Shown here piece by piece: positions 1 through 50,941 of a DNA stretch of 64,000 nucleotides. The stretch covers positions 1 to 64,000 of the forward strand of contig JAGWQH010000025.1 in assembly GCA_028870115.1 (NCBI GenBank). Reading direction: 5' to 3'. A program made the translations under genes and the position numbers. Origin of the DNA: Candidatus Methylomirabilota bacterium. GTDB taxonomy: Bacteria > Methylomirabilota > Methylomirabilia > Methylomirabilales > Methylomirabilaceae. Every line of letters starts with the position of its first letter. Position 1 is the stretch's first letter. The notes under the pieces were generated by a model that saw nothing but the letters and a program-made list of their open reading frames with translations, made no database searches and had not been told where the DNA came from.

Positions 1-2772
1 CTCGCCGTGCCGGAGCCCGGACCGGAGCCAACGCTGGACGAGATGCTGGCCGACATCGAGCGCCAGCGGCTCTTTCGCATCATCGAGAGCCTGGTGCTGT
101 GGGAAAACACCACCAACGAAAAGGTGCTGCAGGCGGCGCGCGACGAGATCTGGTCGAGCTGGCGGCGCGCCTGCGCGGAAAACGCCGACCATCCGCGGTC
201 GAAGGAGCTGTTCGACCGCAAGAAGCTGCCCGCCTTCCACGACCCCTTCGCCGGCGGCGGGGCGCTGCCGCTAGAGGCGCAGCGGCTTGGCCTGGAGGCG
301 TACGCTAGTGACCTGAACCCGGTGGCGGTGCTGATCAACAAGGCGATGATCGAGATCCCGCCGAAGTTCGCAGGGAAGCCGCCGGTGAACCCCGAGGCGC
401 GTAAGGAGAAGACGCTGCTCGCGCGCGAGTGGCGCGGCGCGCAGGGCCTCGCCGAGGACGTGCGCTACTATGGCCAGTGGATGCGCGACGAGGCCGAGAA
501 GCGCATCGGCCACCTCTACCCGAAGGTCAAAATCCCCCCTCGTTCCCCTCTTTCGCAAAGGGGGGATGGGGGGGATTTCTTCGCCGAGCGGCCAGACCTG
601 ATCCCCTACGCTGGAAAAGAACTCACCGTGATCGCTTGGGTCTGGGCGCGCACGGTGAAGAGCCCGAACCCGGCCTTCGCGCAGGTGGACGTGCCGCTCG
701 CCTCGACCTTCATGCTCTCCACCAAGGCGGGCAAGGAGGCGTACGTCGAGCCGGTGATCGAGGGCGGCGGCTACCGCTTCACGGTGAAGGTGGGCAAGCC
801 GAAGGATGCGGAGAAGGCGAAGAACGGCACCAAGCTTTCGCGTGGCGCGAACTTCCGCTGCCTGATGTCGGGGACGCCGATCGAAGGTAACTACATCAAG
901 GCCGAGGGTAAGGCCGGGTGCATGGGCGCGCGGCTGATGGCCATCGTCGCCGAAGGCGTGCGCGGCAGAGTCTATCTACCGCCCACCGATGCGATGGAAG
1001 CCGTCGCGCGCCAAGCGAAGGCGGAGTGGAGGCCGGAGGTCACGATTTCAGGAAGCACTCAGTACCTCGGCGTGAAGCCCTACGGCATGGATCGTTTCGA
1101 CCAGCTCTTCACCGATCGCCAGATCGTGGCGCTGACGACCTTCTCCGACCTGGTCCAGGAAGCGCGCGAGCGGGTGAAGCGTGACGCCCTTGCCGCCGCC
1201 TTGCGCGCAGAGGACAAGCTCCTAGACGCCGGCGGCACTGGAGCCACGGCGTACGCCAATGCTGTCGGAGTGTACCTCGCGTTCGCAGTCGACAAGGGCG
1301 CCAACTACGGGTCATCAGTTTGTGCGTGGCACATCACTCGGGACGGGATCGTCTCCACATTCGGGCGGCAAGCCATTCCGATGGTCTTTGACTATGCGGA
1401 GGCCAATCCCCTGAGTGGTTCGACAGGCAACATCCTGCTTGGCGTGGAACAGGCAGCGGAAATGATTCAAGCGCTTGGTGTAGGGCAGCATGGATTGGGG
1501 CTACAAGCAGACGCTGCAACTCAGGCCATAAGCGCTGATAAGGTTGTCTCCACCGATCCACCCTACTTCGACAACGTCCCGTACGCGGACCTCTCAGATT
1601 TCTTCTATGTGTGGCTACGTCGGTCGCTGAAATCGGTGTTCCCAAGTCTCTTTGCAACTCTCGTCGCGCCGAAAGCCGAGGAACTGGTTGCCTTCGCGTA
1701 CCGCCACGATGACAAGGCCGGCGCCGAGGCGTTCTTCCTCAGCGGCATGACGCAAGTGATGCACCGTCTGGCCGAACTGTCGCATCCGGCCTTCCCTGTC
1801 ACCATCTATTACGCCTTCCGGCAGGCCGAGACTGATGTCGAGGAAGGCACCGCAAGTACTGGCTGGGATACCTTCCTGGAAGCAGTGATCCGCGCTGGCT
1901 TCGGCATCAGCGGTACCTGGCCGATGCGCACGGAGTACACCGGCAACTTGAAGACCAAACGAAACGCCCTCGCCTCCAGCATCATTCTCGTCTGCCGCCC
2001 GCGCGTGGCTAATGCGCCTACCGCGACGCGACGCGAGTTCATCACCGTGCTCAAGGCCGAGCTGCCCAAGGCGCTCACGCACCTGCAGCGGGGCAACATC
2101 GCCCCGGTGGACCTGGCGCAGGCGGCCATCGGCCCGGGCATGGCGGTCTACACGCGCTACGCCAAGGTGCTCGACGCCGAAGGCAAGACGCTCTCGGTGC
2201 GTGAGGCGCTGGCGCTCATCAACCAGACCCTCGACGAGGCGCTGGCCGAGCAGGAGGGCGACTTCGACGCCGACAGCCGCTGGGCGCTGGCGTGGTTTGA
2301 ACAGTCGGGCTTCGCCGAGGGCGAGTACGGTGTAGCCGAGACCCTCTCCAAGGCCAAGAATACCAGCGTGGCCGGTATGGTCGAGGCGGGCATCCTGGCG
2401 TCGAGTCGCGGCAAGGTGCGGTTACTGAAGCCCGACGAACTGCCCGCCAACTGGCCTGCCTGCCGCGCCAAGCACGGCGCAGGCAGGGACCCGACGACCG
2501 ATCTGCGACTCACGGCATGGGAGATGGTGCATCAATTAATCCGATCGCTCGAAGCCGGCGGCGAAGGCGCGACGGCAGCGCTCGTCGCCAAGCTCGGCGC
2601 AAAGGCCGAGGTCGCCCGCGAGCTGGCCTATCGGCTCTACACCTTGTGTGAGCGCAAGAAGCGCGCGGCAGAGGCGCTTTCCTACAACAGCCTCGTCCAG
2701 AGCTGGCCTGAGATCACTCGCCTTGCCCGCGAAGGCGACAAGCCACGAGCGGAACAGGGCGAGCTTCTATGA
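1..2772 (+). CDS. DUF1156-family DNA methyltransferase, 5' end outside window
   Basis: The frame is already open at the window edge, two codons before the first GTG at 7. The usual N-terminus of DUF1156 proteins is missing, so the gene starts upstream. About 921 residues are visible. The S-adenosylmethionine-binding motif DPFAGGG is near residue 79 and the catalytic DPPY motif ([11 protein letters not shown]) near residue 517. DUF1156 proteins are large adenine-methylase-like enzymes often found beside DUF499 ATPases in defence islands. Residues about 175-191 come from a palindromic repeat inserted in frame (529-577). The stop overlaps the next start by 4 bp (ATGA), which suggests translational coupling. 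A role in marking self DNA is inferred from family and context; no target site can be read here. Confidence 0.85.
529..577. repeat. Palindromic repeat inserted in frame in the DUF1156 gene
   Basis: An inverted repeat of the type AAATCCCCCC...CCCCTCTTT...AAAGGGGGGA...GGGGGATTT. It belongs to the same family as 38723-38763, 39157-39204 and 50896-50941. It keeps the reading frame open and encodes a Pro/Gly-rich patch ([10 protein letters not shown]) that does not look like part of the methylase fold. The reading phase differs from that used in the two pyrK copies. Confidence 0.75.
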
Positions 2773-27168: not shown

Positions 27169-29208
27169 TTACTTGAGGTTAAACAGCTTCTTGAAGGCGG
27201 CCTCGTCGAGGGTGGGGACGCCGAGGCGCTTGGCGTCGTCGAACTTGCTGCCGGGATCTTTGCCCACGACGGCGTAATCGGTCTTTGAGCTGACCGACGA
27301 AGTCACGCGGCCGCCGGCCTGCGCGATCAGCTCTTTTGCCTCGTCGCGGGTGAGGGTTTCCAGCCCGCCCGTTAAGACGAACGTTTTGCCCGCCAGAGGG
27401 CGAGGTCCCGCCGTGACCCCTGCTTCCTTCATGCTGACGCCTACGCCTCGCAACTGCTCAATCTGACGGCGGTTCTCCGACTGGCGAAAGTAGAGCGCCA
27501 CACTCTGGGCGATGCGAGAGCCGATGCCGTAGATCTCAGCCAGTTCTTCCTCCGGCGCTTGCTCCAGCCGATCCATCGAGCCGTAATGCTGAGCCAGGAT
27601 CGTGGCGACGTGCTCGCCCACATACCGGATGCCCAGCGCGAACAACAGGCGACTCAACCCGCGTCCCTTGCTCCCCTGGATGGCGTTGTACAGGTTGGTA
27701 GCAGATTTCTGCGCTAACCGTTCAAGCCCTGCCAGCGTGTCCACGTCAAGTCGGTACAGATCGGCGAACTCCCGGACCAGCTTCCGGTCGACAAGCTGCT
27801 CCACCACGGCCTCGCCAAGGTGCTCGATGTCCATGGCCCGGCGCGAGCCGAAGTGTAGCAGCGACTCTTTCAGCCGCGCTAAGCAGGCGGAGTTCACGCA
27901 GCGGCTGACGACCTCGCCCTCTGGCCGGAAGGCCTCGGCGCCACAGACAGGGCATCGGGTGGGAAACCGGAACGGCGTGCTGTGAGACGGCCGCTTGTCC
28001 TGAATCACCCGTAAAATGTGCGGGATCACATCCCCGGCCCGCTCGATCAGGACACTGTCTCCCTCCCGGACATCAAGACGTTCGATCTCATCGGCATTGT
28101 GGAGCGTCGCCCGGCTGATCGTGGCGCCGGCAATCTCTACGGGATCGAGCAGGGCGGTCGGCGTCAGCGCTCCTGTTCGTCCCACGCTGATGTCGATCTT
28201 TCTGATGACACTGGTCGCTTGCCGCGCCGGGAACTTATAGGCAATGGCCCACCTGGGATGGTGGGTGGTCGAGCCGAGCCTGCGCTGCTGTTCGATTGCA
28301 TCGACCTTGACCACGACGCCGTCGCAGTCGCACCCGATCTCGTCACGACCGGCCTCGACCTCAAGGCAGGTCTGGATGGCGCCCTCGATATCGGCGCAGC
28401 GCCGGCGATAGCGCTCCAGCGTGTTTTTGCGGTCGTTGGGATCAAGAAGGAATCCGGACTCAAGCAACTGTTCCATGGTCTGCCAATGGTCTGTGAACGG
28501 ATCCGGCTCTGCATAGCTGACGCCATAGATGAAGATATCGAGGGGACGGCTTACGGTAACTCGCGAGTCTTTCTGGCGGACTGAGCCGGCCGCGGCATTC
28601 CTGGGATTGGCAAACGGCTCTTCGCCTTCCGTCTCCAGCCCCCGATTTAACTTTTCAAACGCTTGACGCCACATGAAGATCTCGCCGCGCACCTCCAAGG
28701 CAGCACACGTAGCTAACGGTCCGTACAGGCGATGGGGGATCCCCCTGACCGTCATCAGGTTTTGCGTCACGTCCTCGCCATATCGACCGTCCCCTCTGGT
28801 AGCTCCCCGCACAAGCCGGCCGTCCTCATACAGCAGGGCTACGCCCAGGCCGTCGACCTTCGGCTCAACCACATAGGTGAACCGCTCGCCAGGGAGCGCC
28901 CTCTTGATACGGGCCTCGAACTCCAGAATTTCATCGGCAGTGTAGGCGTTGTCCAACGAGAGCATCGCCGCCTTGTGCTGCACCGAGGTAAACCCTTCGA
29001 CAGGCTGACCGCCAACACGTTGCGTCGGAGAGTCGGGCGTAATCAGGCCGGGATGTTTTGCTTCAAGCTGTTGCAGACGCTGAAAGAGCTTGTCGAACTC
29101 GGCGTCGGTGATCTCCGGCCGGTCCAGCACATAGTACAGGTATTCGTGGCGGCGAATGAGTCGTCGGAGTTCCTCAGCTTGCGCCCGAAGCGTAGCGATC
29201 TCTGACAT
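27169..29208 (-). CDS. ligA: NAD-dependent DNA ligase LigA
   Basis: 679 residues, full length. Domain Ia at the N-terminus (EYLYYVLDRPEITDAEFD), adenylation site Lys in VVEPKVDGLG (about residue 118), OB fold (VGRTGALTPTALLDPV), a four-Cys zinc finger (CPVCG ... CVNSACLARL), helix-hairpin-helix repeats and a C-terminal BRCT domain (LAGKTFVLTGGLETLTRDEAKEL). It joins nicks in DNA replication and repair. Start at 29208 with a normal ligase N-terminus. Confidence 0.97.
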   Translation of the reverse strand: MSEIATLRAQAEELRRLIRRHEYLYYVLDRPEITDAEFDKLFQRLQQLEAKHPGLITPDSPTQRVGGQPVEGFTSVQHKAAMLSLDNAYTADEILEFEARIKRALPGERFTYVVEPKVDGLGVALLYEDGRLVRGATRGDGRYGEDVTQNLMTVRGIPHRLYGPLATCAALEVRGEIFMWRQAFEKLNRGLETEGEEPFANPRNAAAGSVRQKDSRVTVSRPLDIFIYGVSYAEPDPFTDHWQTMEQLLESGFLLDPNDRKNTLERYRRRCADIEGAIQTCLEVEAGRDEIGCDCDGVVVKVDAIEQQRRLGSTTHHPRWAIAYKFPARQATSVIRKIDISVGRTGALTPTALLDPVEIAGATISRATLHNADEIERLDVREGDSVLIERAGDVIPHILRVIQDKRPSHSTPFRFPTRCPVCGAEAFRPEGEVVSRCVNSACLARLKESLLHFGSRRAMDIEHLGEAVVEQLVDRKLVREFADLYRLDVDTLAGLERLAQKSATNLYNAIQGSKGRGLSRLLFALGIRYVGEHVATILAQHYGSMDRLEQAPEEELAEIYGIGSRIAQSVALYFRQSENRRQIEQLRGVGVSMKEAGVTAGPRPLAGKTFVLTGGLETLTRDEAKELIAQAGGRVTSSVSSKTDYAVVGKDPGSKFDDAKRLGVPTLDEAAFKKLFNLK

Positions 29209-30326: not shown

Positions 30327-30997
<671 letters not shown>

Positions 30998-31008
30998 GGA
31001 GGGACGCG

Positions 31009-31938
31009 ATGGGCCTCGCACATAAAGATCTGTTGAGTATGCAGGAACTGACGTCGGACGAGATCCGGCTGATCCTGGATACCGCCGAGTCGATGAAAGA
31101 GGTGGCCCGTCGCGACATCAAGAAGGTACCGGCTCTACGTGGTAAAACGATCATCAATCTGTTCTATGAACCCAGTACGAGGACCCGCACATCGTTTGAG
31201 ATTGCAGGCAAGTGGCTCAGCGCCGACGTCATCAATATCTCTACCTCAGCCAGTTCGGTGACTAAGGGAGAGAGTTTGAAGGATACGGGTCTCACGCTGC
31301 AGGCGATGCACCCGGATATTGTGGTCATCCGCCATCCGGCGGCAGGCACGGCGGGGTTCCTGGCTGGGCGGCTTGCGGCGTCGGTTATCAACGCCGGGGA
31401 TGGCGCCCACGAACACCCCAGTCAGGCCCTGCTCGATCTGTTTACCATCAGGGAAAAGGTGGGGAGACTGGAGGGACTGAAGGCCGCCATTATCGGCGAT
31501 ATCGCCCACAGCCGGGTCGCCAGAAGCAATATCTATGGGATGCACAGGATGGGGATGGAGGTGCGGATCGCAGGGCCCAGGACGATGCTTCCCCGTTTTA
31601 TTGAGCGACTCGGCGTTGAGGTCTTTACGAATCTCGATCGAGCCGTCGCCGACGTCGATATCATCATGATGCTCAGGCTGCAGACCGAGCGTCAACAGGC
31701 CGGATTGTTTCCCTCGCTGCGGGAGTACTCACGCCTGTTTGGCCTGACCGCCGAACGACTGAAAGCCGCAAAGCCCGATGTGCTGATCATGCATCCAGGC
31801 CCGATTAATCGAGGCATAGAAATCGCGCCGGACGTTGCGGATGGGCCGTATTCGCTGATCCTGAATCAGGTGGAGAACGGCCTGGCCGTACGGATGGCGC
31901 TTCTGTACCTTATGGCCGGCGGCGGCCAGGCAGGATAG
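31009..31938 (+). CDS. pyrB: Aspartate carbamoyltransferase catalytic subunit
   Basis: 309 residues. Carbamoyl-phosphate loop STRTRTSFE (about 54-62), [14 protein letters not shown], and [11 protein letters not shown] near 225 are conserved. It makes carbamoyl aspartate, the first committed pyrimidine step. No pyrI regulatory subunit is present, so control is probably through PyrR. The start follows GGGAGGGACGCG. Confidence 0.96.
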
Positions 31939-31957: not shown

Positions 31958-33322
31958 ATGAGGATTCTGATCAGAGGTGGGCGGGTCATCGATCCGACAA
32001 GCGGATTGGATGATCTTCTCGATCTGTTTATCGAAGATGGAAAGATTGTCCGAATTGAGAAAAGCACACGAGGCGGGAGGCGGGAAGCGGGAGGCACCGA
32101 ACTACCGGAAGTCGGTAAAGCCAGGGGGTCGAAAACTGCAAAGAGCGGGGAGTCAACATCAGGCAGCGTTGATCGGGTAATGGATGCGACGGGACTGACG
32201 GTTTGTCCCGGCCTGATCGACATGCATGTCCACCTGCGCCAGCCGGGGCGTGAGGATAAAGAGACCATCGCAAGCGGAACGATGGCGGCAGCGCGGGGCG
32301 GCTTCACGGCGGTCTGCTGTATGCCGAATACCGATCCTGTCAACGACACGCGCTCAGTGACCGAGTTCATCCTGGACACGGCCAAGCGCGAGGGGGCCGT
32401 TCAGGTCTATCCCATCGGCGCTATCACGAAGGGGTTGAAAGGGGAGGAGCTGGCCGAGATCGGGGAGCTGTTCGAAGCGGGATGTGTGGCCATCTCCGAC
32501 GATGGCCGCCCGGTCATGAATGCTGAACTGATGCGGCGGGCCATGGAATATGCGGCGATGTTTGATTTACCGGTCATCCAGCATAGCGAGGATCTGCATC
32601 TGAGCGGCCGGGGAGTCGTCCACGAAGGACTGGTCTCGACTGAGCTTGGGCTGCGCGGCATCCCGTCGGCGTCGGAGGCGGTCATGGTGGCGCGCGACCT
32701 GTTGCTGGCGGAGTTGACCGGCGCGAGGCTCCACATTGCCCATGTGAGCGCGGCCGAATCGGTGCGTCTGATTCGCGAGGCGAAGGCCCGTAGGATGCGG
32801 GTAAGCTGCGAGGTCACCCCGCATCATCTGGCGCTCACAGAGGACGCTGTCCGCGGCTTCAATTCCAACGCGAAGATGAACCCGCCGCTTCGCTCCGAGG
32901 ACGATCGGCAGGCCCTGTTGGAGGGGTTGCGAGACGGGACTATCGATGTGATCGCGACGGATCACGCCCCCCACACGGTCCAAGAGAAAGAGCGGGAGTT
33001 TGATCAGGCCCCTAATGGTGTGATCGGCCTGGAGACAGCGCTCGCAGTGACGCTTACGACGCTCGTGGCTCCGGGCGTGTTGAGCCTGCCACAGGCGATA
33101 GCGAAACTCTCCGGCGAGCCCGCGCGCATCCTGAAGCTCGCGAAGGGACGGATCGCCGAGGGCGCCGATGCCGATCTCACGATCTTTGATCCCAATCGTG
33201 ATTGGACGGTGGATCCCGCAACCTTTGCCTCCAAGAGTCGGAATACGCCGTTTGCCGGGTGGCGGCTTACCGGTGCGACGGTGGCGACGCTGGTCGGAGG
33301 TAAGGTCGTGTGGGAGGCGTAA
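31958..33322 (+). CDS. pyrC: Dihydroorotase with internal insertion
   Basis: 454 residues, class I dihydroorotase. Metal-binding [10 protein letters not shown], the Asp/metal loop [17 protein letters not shown], and ATDHAPHT are present. Residues about 36-70 ([13 protein letters not shown] onward) are an insertion in the N-terminal beta-sandwich, encoded by four 7-bp repeats (32070-32097) and nearby low-complexity DNA. It closes dihydroorotate in the pyrimidine pathway. A 20-bp gap separates it from pyrB. Confidence 0.93.
32070..32097 (+). repeat. Four 7-bp repeats inside pyrC
   Basis: Units GAGGCGG, GAGGCGG, GAAGCGG, GAGGCAC in tandem (28 bp). They encode part of the N-terminal insertion. 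The same 4x7 architecture, with different unit sequences, recurs in carA and carB. Confidence 0.8.
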
Positions 33323-33335
33323 CGTGGAGAGACCT

Positions 33336-34535
33336 GTGAAAAGGGCGCTCTTGGCGCTGGCGGATGGCACCATCTTCGAGGGGCGCTCCTTTGGATCAGA
33401 GGGAGAGACCGCCGGCGAGGTGGTCTTCAACACCAGTATGACCGGCTACCAGGAGGTCCTGACCGACCCCTCATATAAGGGTCAGATGGTCGTCATGACC
33501 TATCCGCTAATCGGTAACTACGGAATCAATCCTGAAGATGCCGAATCGAGCGCTCTGGCGGTAGAGGGATTTATTGTGAAGGAGGCAAGCGCTCACCCAA
33601 GTAATTGGCGGAGCACTCAGACCCTCGACAGCTACCTTGCAGAGCAGGGCATCGTAGGCATTCAGGGGATTGACACCCGCGCCTTGACCCGCCATCTCCG
33701 GGACCATGGAGCGATGGAAGGGGTAATTTCCACACACGATCTCAAACCCGACAGCCTGATTGCCAGAGCGAAGGCCTCGCCTGGCCTGATCGGACGTGAC
33801 CTGGTGAAGGAAGTCGCCTGTGCGTCGCCGTACACCTGGCACGAGGGACCGTGGCATTTGAGCAAAGGCCACGGTAACAGCGTCGAGCGTCGAGCGTCGA
33901 GCGTCGCGTTGGCAGACCAGCTTAAGCTCTTCCCTCCACCCTCCACCCTCCACCCTAGATCCTTTAAGGTGGTAGCCTACGATTGCGGGATCAAGCAGAA
34001 TATTCTGCGAAAGCTGATAGAGGCAGGGTGCGACGTAACGGTGGTCCCACCGGACACCCCGGCGTCTACGGTCCTGGATCTGGCCCCGGATGGCATCTTC
34101 CTCAGTAATGGTCCCGGCGACCCGGAGGGCGTGCCCTATCTGATCGACAACGTTCAGAAGCTGATCGGCACAAAGCCGATCTTCGGCATCTGTCTGGGGC
34201 ATCAGATCCTGGGCCTCGCGTTCGGGGGACGGACCTACAAGCTGAAGTTCGGTCATCACGGCGGCAACCAGCCTGTCAAGGATCTGACGACGGGGAAGGT
34301 GGAGATCACCACTCAGAACCACGGCTTTGTCGTAGATATCGCGTCGATTCCGGACACTGAGATTGAGCTGACCCACGTCAACCTGAACGACCACACTGTT
34401 GAAGGGATGCGTCATCGCCGCCTGCCGATCTTCTCCGTACAGTACCACCCGGAAGCCTCCCCCGGTCCTCATGATGCGAACTATCTGTTTCAGCGCTTCG
34501 TAGAGTTGATGGCAAAGGCTGGCGCACGCAAATGA
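33336..34535 (+). CDS. carA: Carbamoyl phosphate synthase small subunit (glutaminase)
   Basis: 399 residues from the GTG at 33336 (GGAG six bases upstream); the GTG at 33324 is an alternative. N-terminal domain [24 protein letters not shown]-like [17 protein letters not shown], and a class I glutaminase with nucleophile FGICLGHQ and [10 protein letters not shown], plus the late [10 protein letters not shown]. Between the two domains (about residues 180-208) lies an insertion encoded by two 4x7-bp repeat arrays (33880-33907, 33932-33959). It supplies ammonia to CarB. pyrC ends 13 bp before this start. Confidence 0.94.
33880..33907 (+). repeat. Four 7-bp repeats (GCGTCGA) inside carA
   Basis: GCGTCGA three times, then GCGTCGC. 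Together with the second array at 33932-33959 it encodes the interdomain insertion SVERRASS...[10 protein letters not shown]. Confidence 0.85.
33932..33959 (+). repeat. Four 7-bp repeats (CCCTCCA) inside carA
   Basis: CCCTCCA three times, then CCCTAGA. It encodes PPPSTLHPR at the end of the CarA insertion. The array is on the same strand as the GCGTCGA array 24 bp upstream. Confidence 0.85.
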
Positions 34536-38488: not shown

Positions 38489-38530
38489 GGGCGACCGGCC
38501 GGTCGCCCATACAGGTGCGATGTGGAGGGA

Positions 38531-39505
38531 ATGATAGCGGCCTCAGAGGCTCTCGTCGAAGTGGTCGCCAACAAGCAGATCGCGCCAGAGTACTTTTCGA
38601 TGCGTCTAGCCGGCCCAGCGCGCCTGACGCGCTTCCGTCCCGGGCAATTCCTCATGCTCGGATGGATCGATGGACAAGATCCGCTGCTGCCTCGGGCCAT
38701 GAGCATCAGGCGTACGAAAACTCTCCAACTCCCCTTTTCAAAAGGGGGGCACGGGGGGATTTGGCGTGCACAGTGCGAGGTGGAGATCCTCTACAAGGTG
38801 TGTGGCCGAGGTACGACGCTTCTGGCGGGGATGCGTCCGGGAAGGTCTCTCCGCATGCTCGGTCCGCTCGGCAACGGCTTCGAGGTTCCGCGAAGGGTGA
38901 CGGACGTCGTCCTGGTTGCCGGCGGAGTCGGCGTACCCCCCATCGCTGCTCTTGCTGAGACGTTCGCTGCACGCCGAGTATCACGCAGAGCGAAGATAAC
39001 CGCCTTTCTCGGCGGGAGATCGAAGGTTGACCTGCTGTGCGTTCCGGACCTTCAGCGAGCCGGCGCGACGGTCCAGGTGGCCACAGAAGACGGCACCGCC
39101 GGTCGTAAAGGACTGGTAACCGAGCTGCTGGAGCAGTATCTCAACGCCTCGCACTCCAAATCCCCTCATCCCCCCTTTACAAAAGGGGGGCACGGGGGGA
39201 TTTATGCCTGTGGCCCGTACCCCATGTTGGCGGCTCTTGCGCCGATTGCCGAGAAATATAATCTGCCATACCAGGCCTCCCTCGAGGCGAACATGGCCTG
39301 CGGGTTTGGGGCCTGCATGGGTTGCGTTGTGCCGGTGAAGGGGGATAAGCGAGACCCGTCTGCGTGCGACGCACAGGCAGGTCGGACCTACCGCCTTGTC
39401 TGCAAGGAGGGGCCGGTCTTTGATGGTCACGACATCCTTTGGGTTAATGGGACTATCCCGCCTATCCCGTCAATTCGGTCGATAGACCAAACAGACCAGA
39501 TATGA
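38531..39505 (+). CDS. pyrK: Dihydroorotate dehydrogenase electron-transfer subunit PyrK, with two repeat insertions
   Basis: 324 residues from the ATG at 38531, longer than usual (about 250-280). FAD domain at the N-terminus (RFRPGQFLMLGWIDG), NAD domain (LVAGGVGVPPIAALAE) and the [2Fe-2S] loop with clustered cysteines (ACGFGACMGC, then a Cys 17 residues on). Residues about 64-80 and 209-225 are encoded by two copies of a palindromic repeat, each giving PF(S/T)KGGHGGI in the same reading phase. It passes electrons from PyrD to NAD. The stop overlaps the pabB start by 4 bp. Confidence 0.9.
   Translation: MIAASEALVEVVANKQIAPEYFSMRLAGPARLTRFRPGQFLMLGWIDGQDPLLPRAMSIRRTKTLQLPFSKGGHGGIWRAQCEVEILYKVCGRGTTLLAGMRPGRSLRMLGPLGNGFEVPRRVTDVVLVAGGVGVPPIAALAETFAARRVSRRAKITAFLGGRSKVDLLCVPDLQRAGATVQVATEDGTAGRKGLVTELLEQYLNASHSKSPHPPFTKGGHGGIYACGPYPMLAALAPIAEKYNLPYQASLEANMACGFGACMGCVVPVKGDKRDPSACDAQAGRTYRLVCKEGPVFDGHDILWVNGTIPPIPSIRSIDQTDQI
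38723..38763. repeat. In-frame palindromic repeat, pyrK copy 1
   Basis: CTCCCCTTTTCAAAAGGGGG-type core with a CACGGGGGGATTT right end. It encodes LQLPFSKGGHGGI between the FAD and NAD domains of PyrK. Confidence 0.85.
39157..39204. repeat. In-frame palindromic repeat, pyrK copy 2
   Basis: A longer copy of the same element: AAATCCCCTCATCCCCCC, TTTACAAAAGGGGGG, then CACGGGGGGATTT. It encodes SPHPPFTKGGHGGI just before the YACGPYPML motif. Same reading phase as copy 1. Confidence 0.88.
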
Positions 39506-50895: not shown

Positions 50896-50941
50896 TGAAA
50901 TCCCTCCGTACCCCCCCTTTTTTTTGCAAAGTGGGGATAAA
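50896..50941. repeat. Palindromic repeat, degenerate intergenic copy
   Basis: GAAATCCCTCCGTACCCCCC, a T-run, then GCAAAGTGGGG: a worn copy of the element found in frame in pyrK and the DUF1156 gene. It lies between the SDR remnant and the transporter fusion gene. Confidence 0.7.

Follow-up and report, generated by a model that had tools for sequence, protein, structure and literature searches.

Predicted translated copies of a dispersed 46-nt palindrome in PyrK of a Methylomirabilota bacterium, at protein loops that hold other repeats in sister species

The window analysed here (a 64-kb stretch of DNA, G000:C25:1-64000, from a genome of 2.81 Mb) has its closest named records in Candidatus Methylomirabilis and other Methylomirabilota/NC10. 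It carries a pyrimidine cluster comprising pyrB (31009), pyrC (31958), carA (about 33312), an O-methyltransferase gene (34532), carB (35192), pyrK (38522), a pabB-like gene (39502) and pyrD (about 41816). The gene of interest, pyrK, is an ORF of 327 aa (38522-39505, forward strand) for the electron-transfer subunit of dihydroorotate dehydrogenase B, identified by its domains (PF10418 and PF00175), by sequence matches to solved proteins (5ksw_B/1ep3_B) and by its fold, for which the best PDB match is 5ksw_B (TM-score 0.84 over the target, E = 7e-22).

Two copies of a palindromic element, each of 46 nt, lie within pyrK on the forward strand and in the same phase (+0): copy 1 (38717-38762; 63.8 bits) encodes (T)KTLQLPFSKGGHGGI(W) and copy 2 (39158-39203; 70.8 bits) encodes KSPHPPFTKGGHGGI(Y). 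They are 85% identical, their final 24 nt being the same in both, and they give the peptides PFSKGGHGGI (38732-38761) and PFTKGGHGGI (39173-39202). The original prediction was of two near-identical in-frame palindromes; this is confirmed with one correction, namely that only copy 2 is a near-perfect hairpin (DNA fold z = -4.4, with none of 200 shuffles as good), copy 1 retaining its right arm and inner stem but having a decayed outer left arm (z = -1.8). Adjoining copy 1 is GGCGTGCACAGTGCGAG (38763-38779, forward strand), a remnant of a GTGCGAG-type heptamer array, sister species having heptamer arrays at the same place. Sequence alignment to PyrK proteins in the PDB and an AlphaFold2 model (mean pLDDT 84.3) place both copies in loops and mark them as insertions when compared with solved PyrK proteins. 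Copy 1 comes after strand 58-67 and before strand 85-92, in a block of low model confidence (pLDDT about 54); copy 2 follows helix 199-213 and precedes strand 226-230 (pLDDT 73-83).

This pair of repeats is not a product of chance, because the 22-nt right half of the element occurs 35 times in the genome at three or fewer mismatches (reversed control, 0) and the 64-kb window holds four matches to the element where 0.01 would be expected. A covariance model built from 20 copies found strong copies (at least 40 bits) at no fewer than 30 distinct places in the genome; both genome counts, 35 matches and 30 strong copies, are lower bounds from a census by searches and sampled stretches, in which part of the first-look candidates were scored. 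The consensus is AAATCCCCCCACCCCCCCTTTACAAAAGGGGGGCACGGGGGGATTT, of 46 nt, and the strong copies range from 43 to 52 nt. The third in-gene copy of the window (530-578, forward strand; 55.9 bits, phase +1) is in an ORF for a DUF1156-type DNA methyltransferase (7-2772), and a partial element at 50898-50919 on the reverse strand, with three mismatches to the right half and lacking the other arm, lies at an ORF edge. Of 95 genomes of the phylum, 19 have the palindrome, every one of them within the Candidatus Methylomirabilis order and 12 of them among the 15 genomes of the source genus (it is missing from G002, G006 and G011); copies are found in either orientation and in numbers that vary among species. 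In G009, the pyrK region has palindromes at C22:30725-30770 and 30973-31018, one in the first of the two PyrK sites and the other just upstream of the pyrK match, and further intergenic ones in the same cluster at 27488 and 36069. A viral origin was considered and rejected, as viral contigs do not contain the 22-nt core, and Rfam recognised only RNase P and one tRNA within the window. We found no report of this palindrome, or of heptamers, in Methylomirabilis in a non-exhaustive search of the literature. The dispersed palindrome is thus presented as a new family, palindromes in frame within genes being a kind already known.

Coding context was assessed with a home-made coding Markov model, six-frame inspection and Pfam/NCBIfam. 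By these means, 10 of the 30 strong copies are internal to genes and in frame, with domains or coding signal on both sides: two in PyrK, one each in TsaD (aa 239-254) and QueA (aa 194-209), where they fall within the domain, and the others in FolC (aa 181-196, reverse orientation), Mfd (about aa 285-301), CopA (aa 69-84), AsmA (aa 404-419), the DUF1156 methylase of the window and an N6/N4 methylase. A further two extend their ORFs in frame as C-terminal tails (Mfd 1088-1103 and an ORF at C82), and the other 18 are intergenic or at gene edges, mostly 5'. It follows from this tally that copies elsewhere in the genome are not confined to intergenic DNA, and no recognisable gene is split into two frames by any of the 30. 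In G005, palindromes are also found in genes named, from their translated sequence, as those for a histidine kinase, PriA, polyprenyl synthase and Lon. The earlier suggestion that the element has been selected to be translatable is not supported, and neither is selection for one phase. Internal copies occur in each of the forward phases and on the reverse strand (+0 four times, +1 twice, +2 three times, reverse strand once), so no phase is favoured enough to claim selection, and the consensus is open in five of the six frames because of its composition (runs of C and of G), each frame being open in 59-67% of shuffled consensus sequences.

Palindromic elements of Rickettsia likewise occur in frame within genes (Ogata 2000, 2002, as reviewed in PMC2229807 and PMC10969869), and the likeness drawn in the original prediction is a good one as regards behaviour: in both cases palindromes are dispersed, intergenic as well as in frame within conserved genes for unrelated proteins, and are likely to be neutral for the host protein (judged here from open frames). 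It does not extend to sequence class. The Rickettsia elements are 105-146 nt long, with a long stem and terminal inverted repeats (PMC2229807) and a CGTC tetranucleotide at one end (PMC3733652), whereas the present element is of 46 nt (43-52 nt for strong copies), has no CGTC next to the ends of its 30 strong copies, belongs to a different phylum, Methylomirabilota, and has sites in common with heptanucleotide arrays and other palindrome families. The GTAG/CGTC REPs, too, are found in frame in genes of several species, sometimes twice per gene, and in a single case two different ones occupy about the same site in recB of two Xanthomonas (PMC3733652). Short in-frame palindromes, double insertions and DNA-repair hosts (here Mfd and PriA) are common features; on the other hand, GTAG and CGTC tags are both missing from the 30 strong copies, no RAYT was found beside the family, and site sharing is here systematic and extends to tandem heptamers.

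How might such an element move? A REP- or MITE-type palindrome could be carried into genes at random by a dedicated transposase (a RAYT or another HUH enzyme); only copies in loops would then survive, and the overlap with heptamer sites would mean no more than that such loops tolerate both. A dispersed palindrome whose copy number varies from species to species would fit, intragenic REPs are tied to RAYTs in other species (PMC3733652), and the genome has one Y1 transposase gene with a weak match to the palindrome about 100 nt away. However, that gene has IS200-like hairpins of its own on both sides, which bear no relation to the element, the 30 copies lack a GTAG or CGTC tag at their ends, and comparison with empty alleles gives net gains of 36 nt (Mfd C-terminal site) and 39 nt (polyprenyl synthase) rather than 46 nt plus a target duplication, neither a clean insertion nor a target duplication being seen at these two sites. 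As regards a MITE, palindromic ends are present, the net gains at the empty sites are those just given, and no duplication was seen. A dedicated transposase is therefore possible but, in our opinion, rather unlikely, and a RAYT was rejected as the mover, the terminal hairpins of the only Y1 transposase in the genome being unrelated. The IS200/IS605-like tnpA with terminal hairpins of its own is located at L090:4599-5210 (G000:C67), with the degenerate palindrome about 100 nt upstream.

It is the site, and not only the element, that needs explaining, for in sister species the loops concerned are filled by heptanucleotide arrays unrelated to the palindrome, a point that the original prediction did not make. 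Sisters have at PyrK site 1 GTGCGAG-type arrays, TTCAAGG/ACCCGAA-type arrays or the palindrome (G003 and G009), and at site 2 they have 27-nt arrays of ACCTCGC, GACGCTC, ACCCCAC or ACCCAAC, or again the palindrome (G005 and G009). The peptide PF(S/T)KGGHGGI is accordingly not universal in PyrK, and the idea that PyrK loops tolerate insertion agrees with the other in-frame repeats that they carry in further Methylomirabilota and in Omnitrophota. The positions in QueA, TsaD and FolC follow the same pattern, with unrelated in-frame repeats that are mostly tandem heptanucleotides, and a second palindrome, GGGCGCAGCAAGCAGCGCCC, occupies FolC/TsaD sites (in inserts of G002, G003, G006, G007, G009, G011 and G014). 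In Mfd, the mid site has the family palindrome in two species and, in G007/G014, a palindrome of a different family; the C-terminal site has the family palindrome in five species and is empty in seven, the orthologous copies there decaying by substitution with the frame kept. Mfd of G007/G014 carries a third palindrome, of the CTCTCCCTAACCCTTCCCCC...GGGGGAGGG type, and G008 has one resembling it in polyprenyl synthase. PriA and polyprenyl synthase give the same picture of shared sites. Sharing is systematic over the eight gene sites examined.

Of the 57 sister inserts that lack the palindrome, 26 contain a heptamer array, taken as an exact run of 9 or more at lag 7; for background windows the figure is 5 of 1624 (0.3%). 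By site, the heptamer-bearing inserts are two of eight (PyrK site 1), five of six (PyrK site 2), seven of 12 (QueA), 10 of 13 (TsaD), two of seven (FolC) and none of 11 (Mfd); as the Mfd inserts comprise none of three at the C-terminal site and none of eight at the mid site, heptamers are not required at such places. The tabulated inserts (those of QueA, TsaD, FolC, CarA, Mfd, PriA and polyprenyl synthase) have lengths that are multiples of three, except in QueA of G006. A few protein loops, then, are common landing sites (here termed sockets) for unrelated repeat classes, and the presence of several repeat classes at the same loops is what is new beyond the known in-gene palindromes. Most of the genomes are drafts obtained from metagenomes, in tens to hundreds of contigs, and repeats do break assemblies; nevertheless, 15 species with separate records, including one record that is a single contig of 2.75 Mb, show the same sites and in-frame inserts, and the chance of an assembly or binning artefact is negligible.

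Might the inserted peptides have a function in PyrK (for example in contacts with PyrD or in oligomerisation), and have been selected in two copies for that reason? A single gene in a genome of 2.8 Mb does hold two copies, they have been kept without frameshift, and the Mfd C-terminal copy persists in five species. Against this, sisters fill both PyrK sites with unrelated peptides or have very short loops there, site 1 is modelled at low confidence as a floppy loop, and the same type of peptide occurs in unrelated proteins, all of which makes such a function very improbable. We see no sign in the sequences that the predicted peptide is itself useful; purifying selection on frame, together with loop tolerance, would seem to be enough.

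Tandem heptanucleotide simple sequence repeats are familiar from cyanobacteria as STRRs, which are known even within RNase P RNA; the RNase P RNA of the window (441 nt) showed no repeats on inspection. In the pyr regions of 12 species (167 kb), there are 33 exact runs of at least 11 at lag 7 and 36 of them at lag 14, whereas any other lag gives 0-4 and simulation about 0. Thirty-one of the 37 arrays in these regions are inside genes (13 in carA, 12 in pyrK, three in carB, two in pyrC and one in pabB), and none of the 37 is in pyrB, pyrD or the methyltransferase or aminotransferase genes. The window itself, on its forward strand, has AGCGTCG x4 (33879-33906) and CCCTCCA x3.6 (33932-33956), both in frame in the same carA linker, and an imperfect in-frame array of GGCGGGA type (32069-32096) in a variable linker of pyrC. 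The CarA linker is exactly 123 nt long in eight of 11 species although its unit differs (GCGTCGA, GTGTCGA, GTTTCGA, GTTCAAG or GGTGCGA), and within each array the unit is nearly homogeneous, a pattern that, on sequence comparison, suggests units evolving in concert while the length stays fixed. Heptanucleotide repeats described elsewhere, GGGNATC in Xanthomonas and Nostoc (PMC4692102) and TAACTGA in Beggiatoaceae (PMC4679880), are mainly intergenic. The arrays reported here resemble them in being tandem 7-mers, often of about four units, with several families per genome and a period of 7 only. They differ in that known heptanucleotide repeats are under-represented in genes, whereas the pyr-region arrays are mostly inside core genes and in frame (31/37), and in that the unit here differs between species at the same position.

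A uniform density of heptamers over the genome was rejected, for random stretches of the source genome gave only five arrays in 462 kb, arrays being concentrated at sockets, and species differ greatly (five in 160 kb of G005, four in 120 kb of G008 and 19 in 120 kb of G009). Near pyrK, named relatives have 17-21 arrays per 100 kb in NC10 and three per 100 kb in other phyla. Omnitrophota PyrK proteins also have in-frame heptamer arrays (e.g. AIRYPLSAI), with as many as three or four loops occupied in a single protein (the PyrK heptamer records, mostly from Omnitrophota, are L168, L170, L173, L176, L180, L182 and L202), and PyrK seems to be a preferred host of repeats across phyla.

Units of 7 nt, not being multiples of three, raise the question of contingency (phase-variation) switches, in which 7-nt slippage would toggle carA, pyrK or queA and the palindromes would be secondary passengers. 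The homogeneity of the arrays implies active turnover, and in queA of G006 (L108:1505-1530) the frame is lost exactly at a GTGCGGG array. Nearly all the arrays examined are in frame, however, the genes are for core biosynthesis rather than surface structures, and the loss of frame in G006 could stem from a slippage mutation, from a phase switch or from misassembly of a draft genome; we regard such switching as improbable.

On a species tree made from five proteins, with the insert columns removed, the presence of the palindrome takes a minimum of three changes at PyrK site 1, four at PyrK site 2, five in FolC, four at the Mfd C-terminal site and two at the Mfd mid site. With at least two to five changes per site, the same sites must have been gained or lost repeatedly, or exchanged between species, and palindromes at one site in distant species could in part reflect allelic exchange or loss. 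GTGCG/CGCAC occurs 29 times near palindromes (8.4 expected), and flanks rich in this motif are in line with palindrome entry into or beside heptamer arrays.

Overall, we think it probable that the PyrK peptides are predicted translated copies of the dispersed 46-nt palindrome, in sockets that are conserved and whose filling is exchanged. Copies spread in either orientation, as their dispersal and variable number show, and would persist within a gene only at a surface loop or linker and with a net length change of a multiple of three, as in the surviving copies, frame-breaking or misplaced ones presumably being purged. The sites of persistence would be a restricted group of loops in which other repeats, chiefly tandem heptanucleotide arrays, are already present or easily acquired, and within a socket one repeat may replace another over time with the frame kept, conserving the socket and not its content. 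Heptamer arrays probably arise and are homogenised by polymerase slippage, which has been proposed as the origin of 7-mers (cited in PMC4679880). For the palindromes, the probable route of entry is recombination or repair mediated by repeats, or else some transposase, with part of the resident sequence being replaced; this is the least certain step. A more speculative reading, which we consider doubtful, is that an active process rewrites a fixed set of loops in Methylomirabilis, and perhaps in Omnitrophota, with position constant, the length in CarA constant, and 7-mer or palindrome content exchanged in blocks between species; if true, it would give core enzymes a steady, frame-safe supply of loop diversity.

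Protein-coding palindromes are hereby extended to a free-living and ecologically important phylum, that of the methane-oxidising Candidatus Methylomirabilis. Sites of repeat entry into proteins are shown to be predictable, the same loops of essential enzymes being reused by unrelated repeat classes, and two questions become testable: by what means short palindromes move, and how essential genes keep their frame while the heptanucleotide arrays inside them turn over. Annotators and structure predictors should be wary of such loops, which are decorated, not conserved. Finally, we draw attention to the heptamer arrays of G009, which are often formed of two inverted arrays some 20-150 nt apart that make a long imperfect inverted repeat (e.g. 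L264:6276-6459, L265:16123-16247 and L266:17121-17200); hairpin formation was rejected as a common denominator of all inserts, several heptamer inserts folding no better than shuffles.
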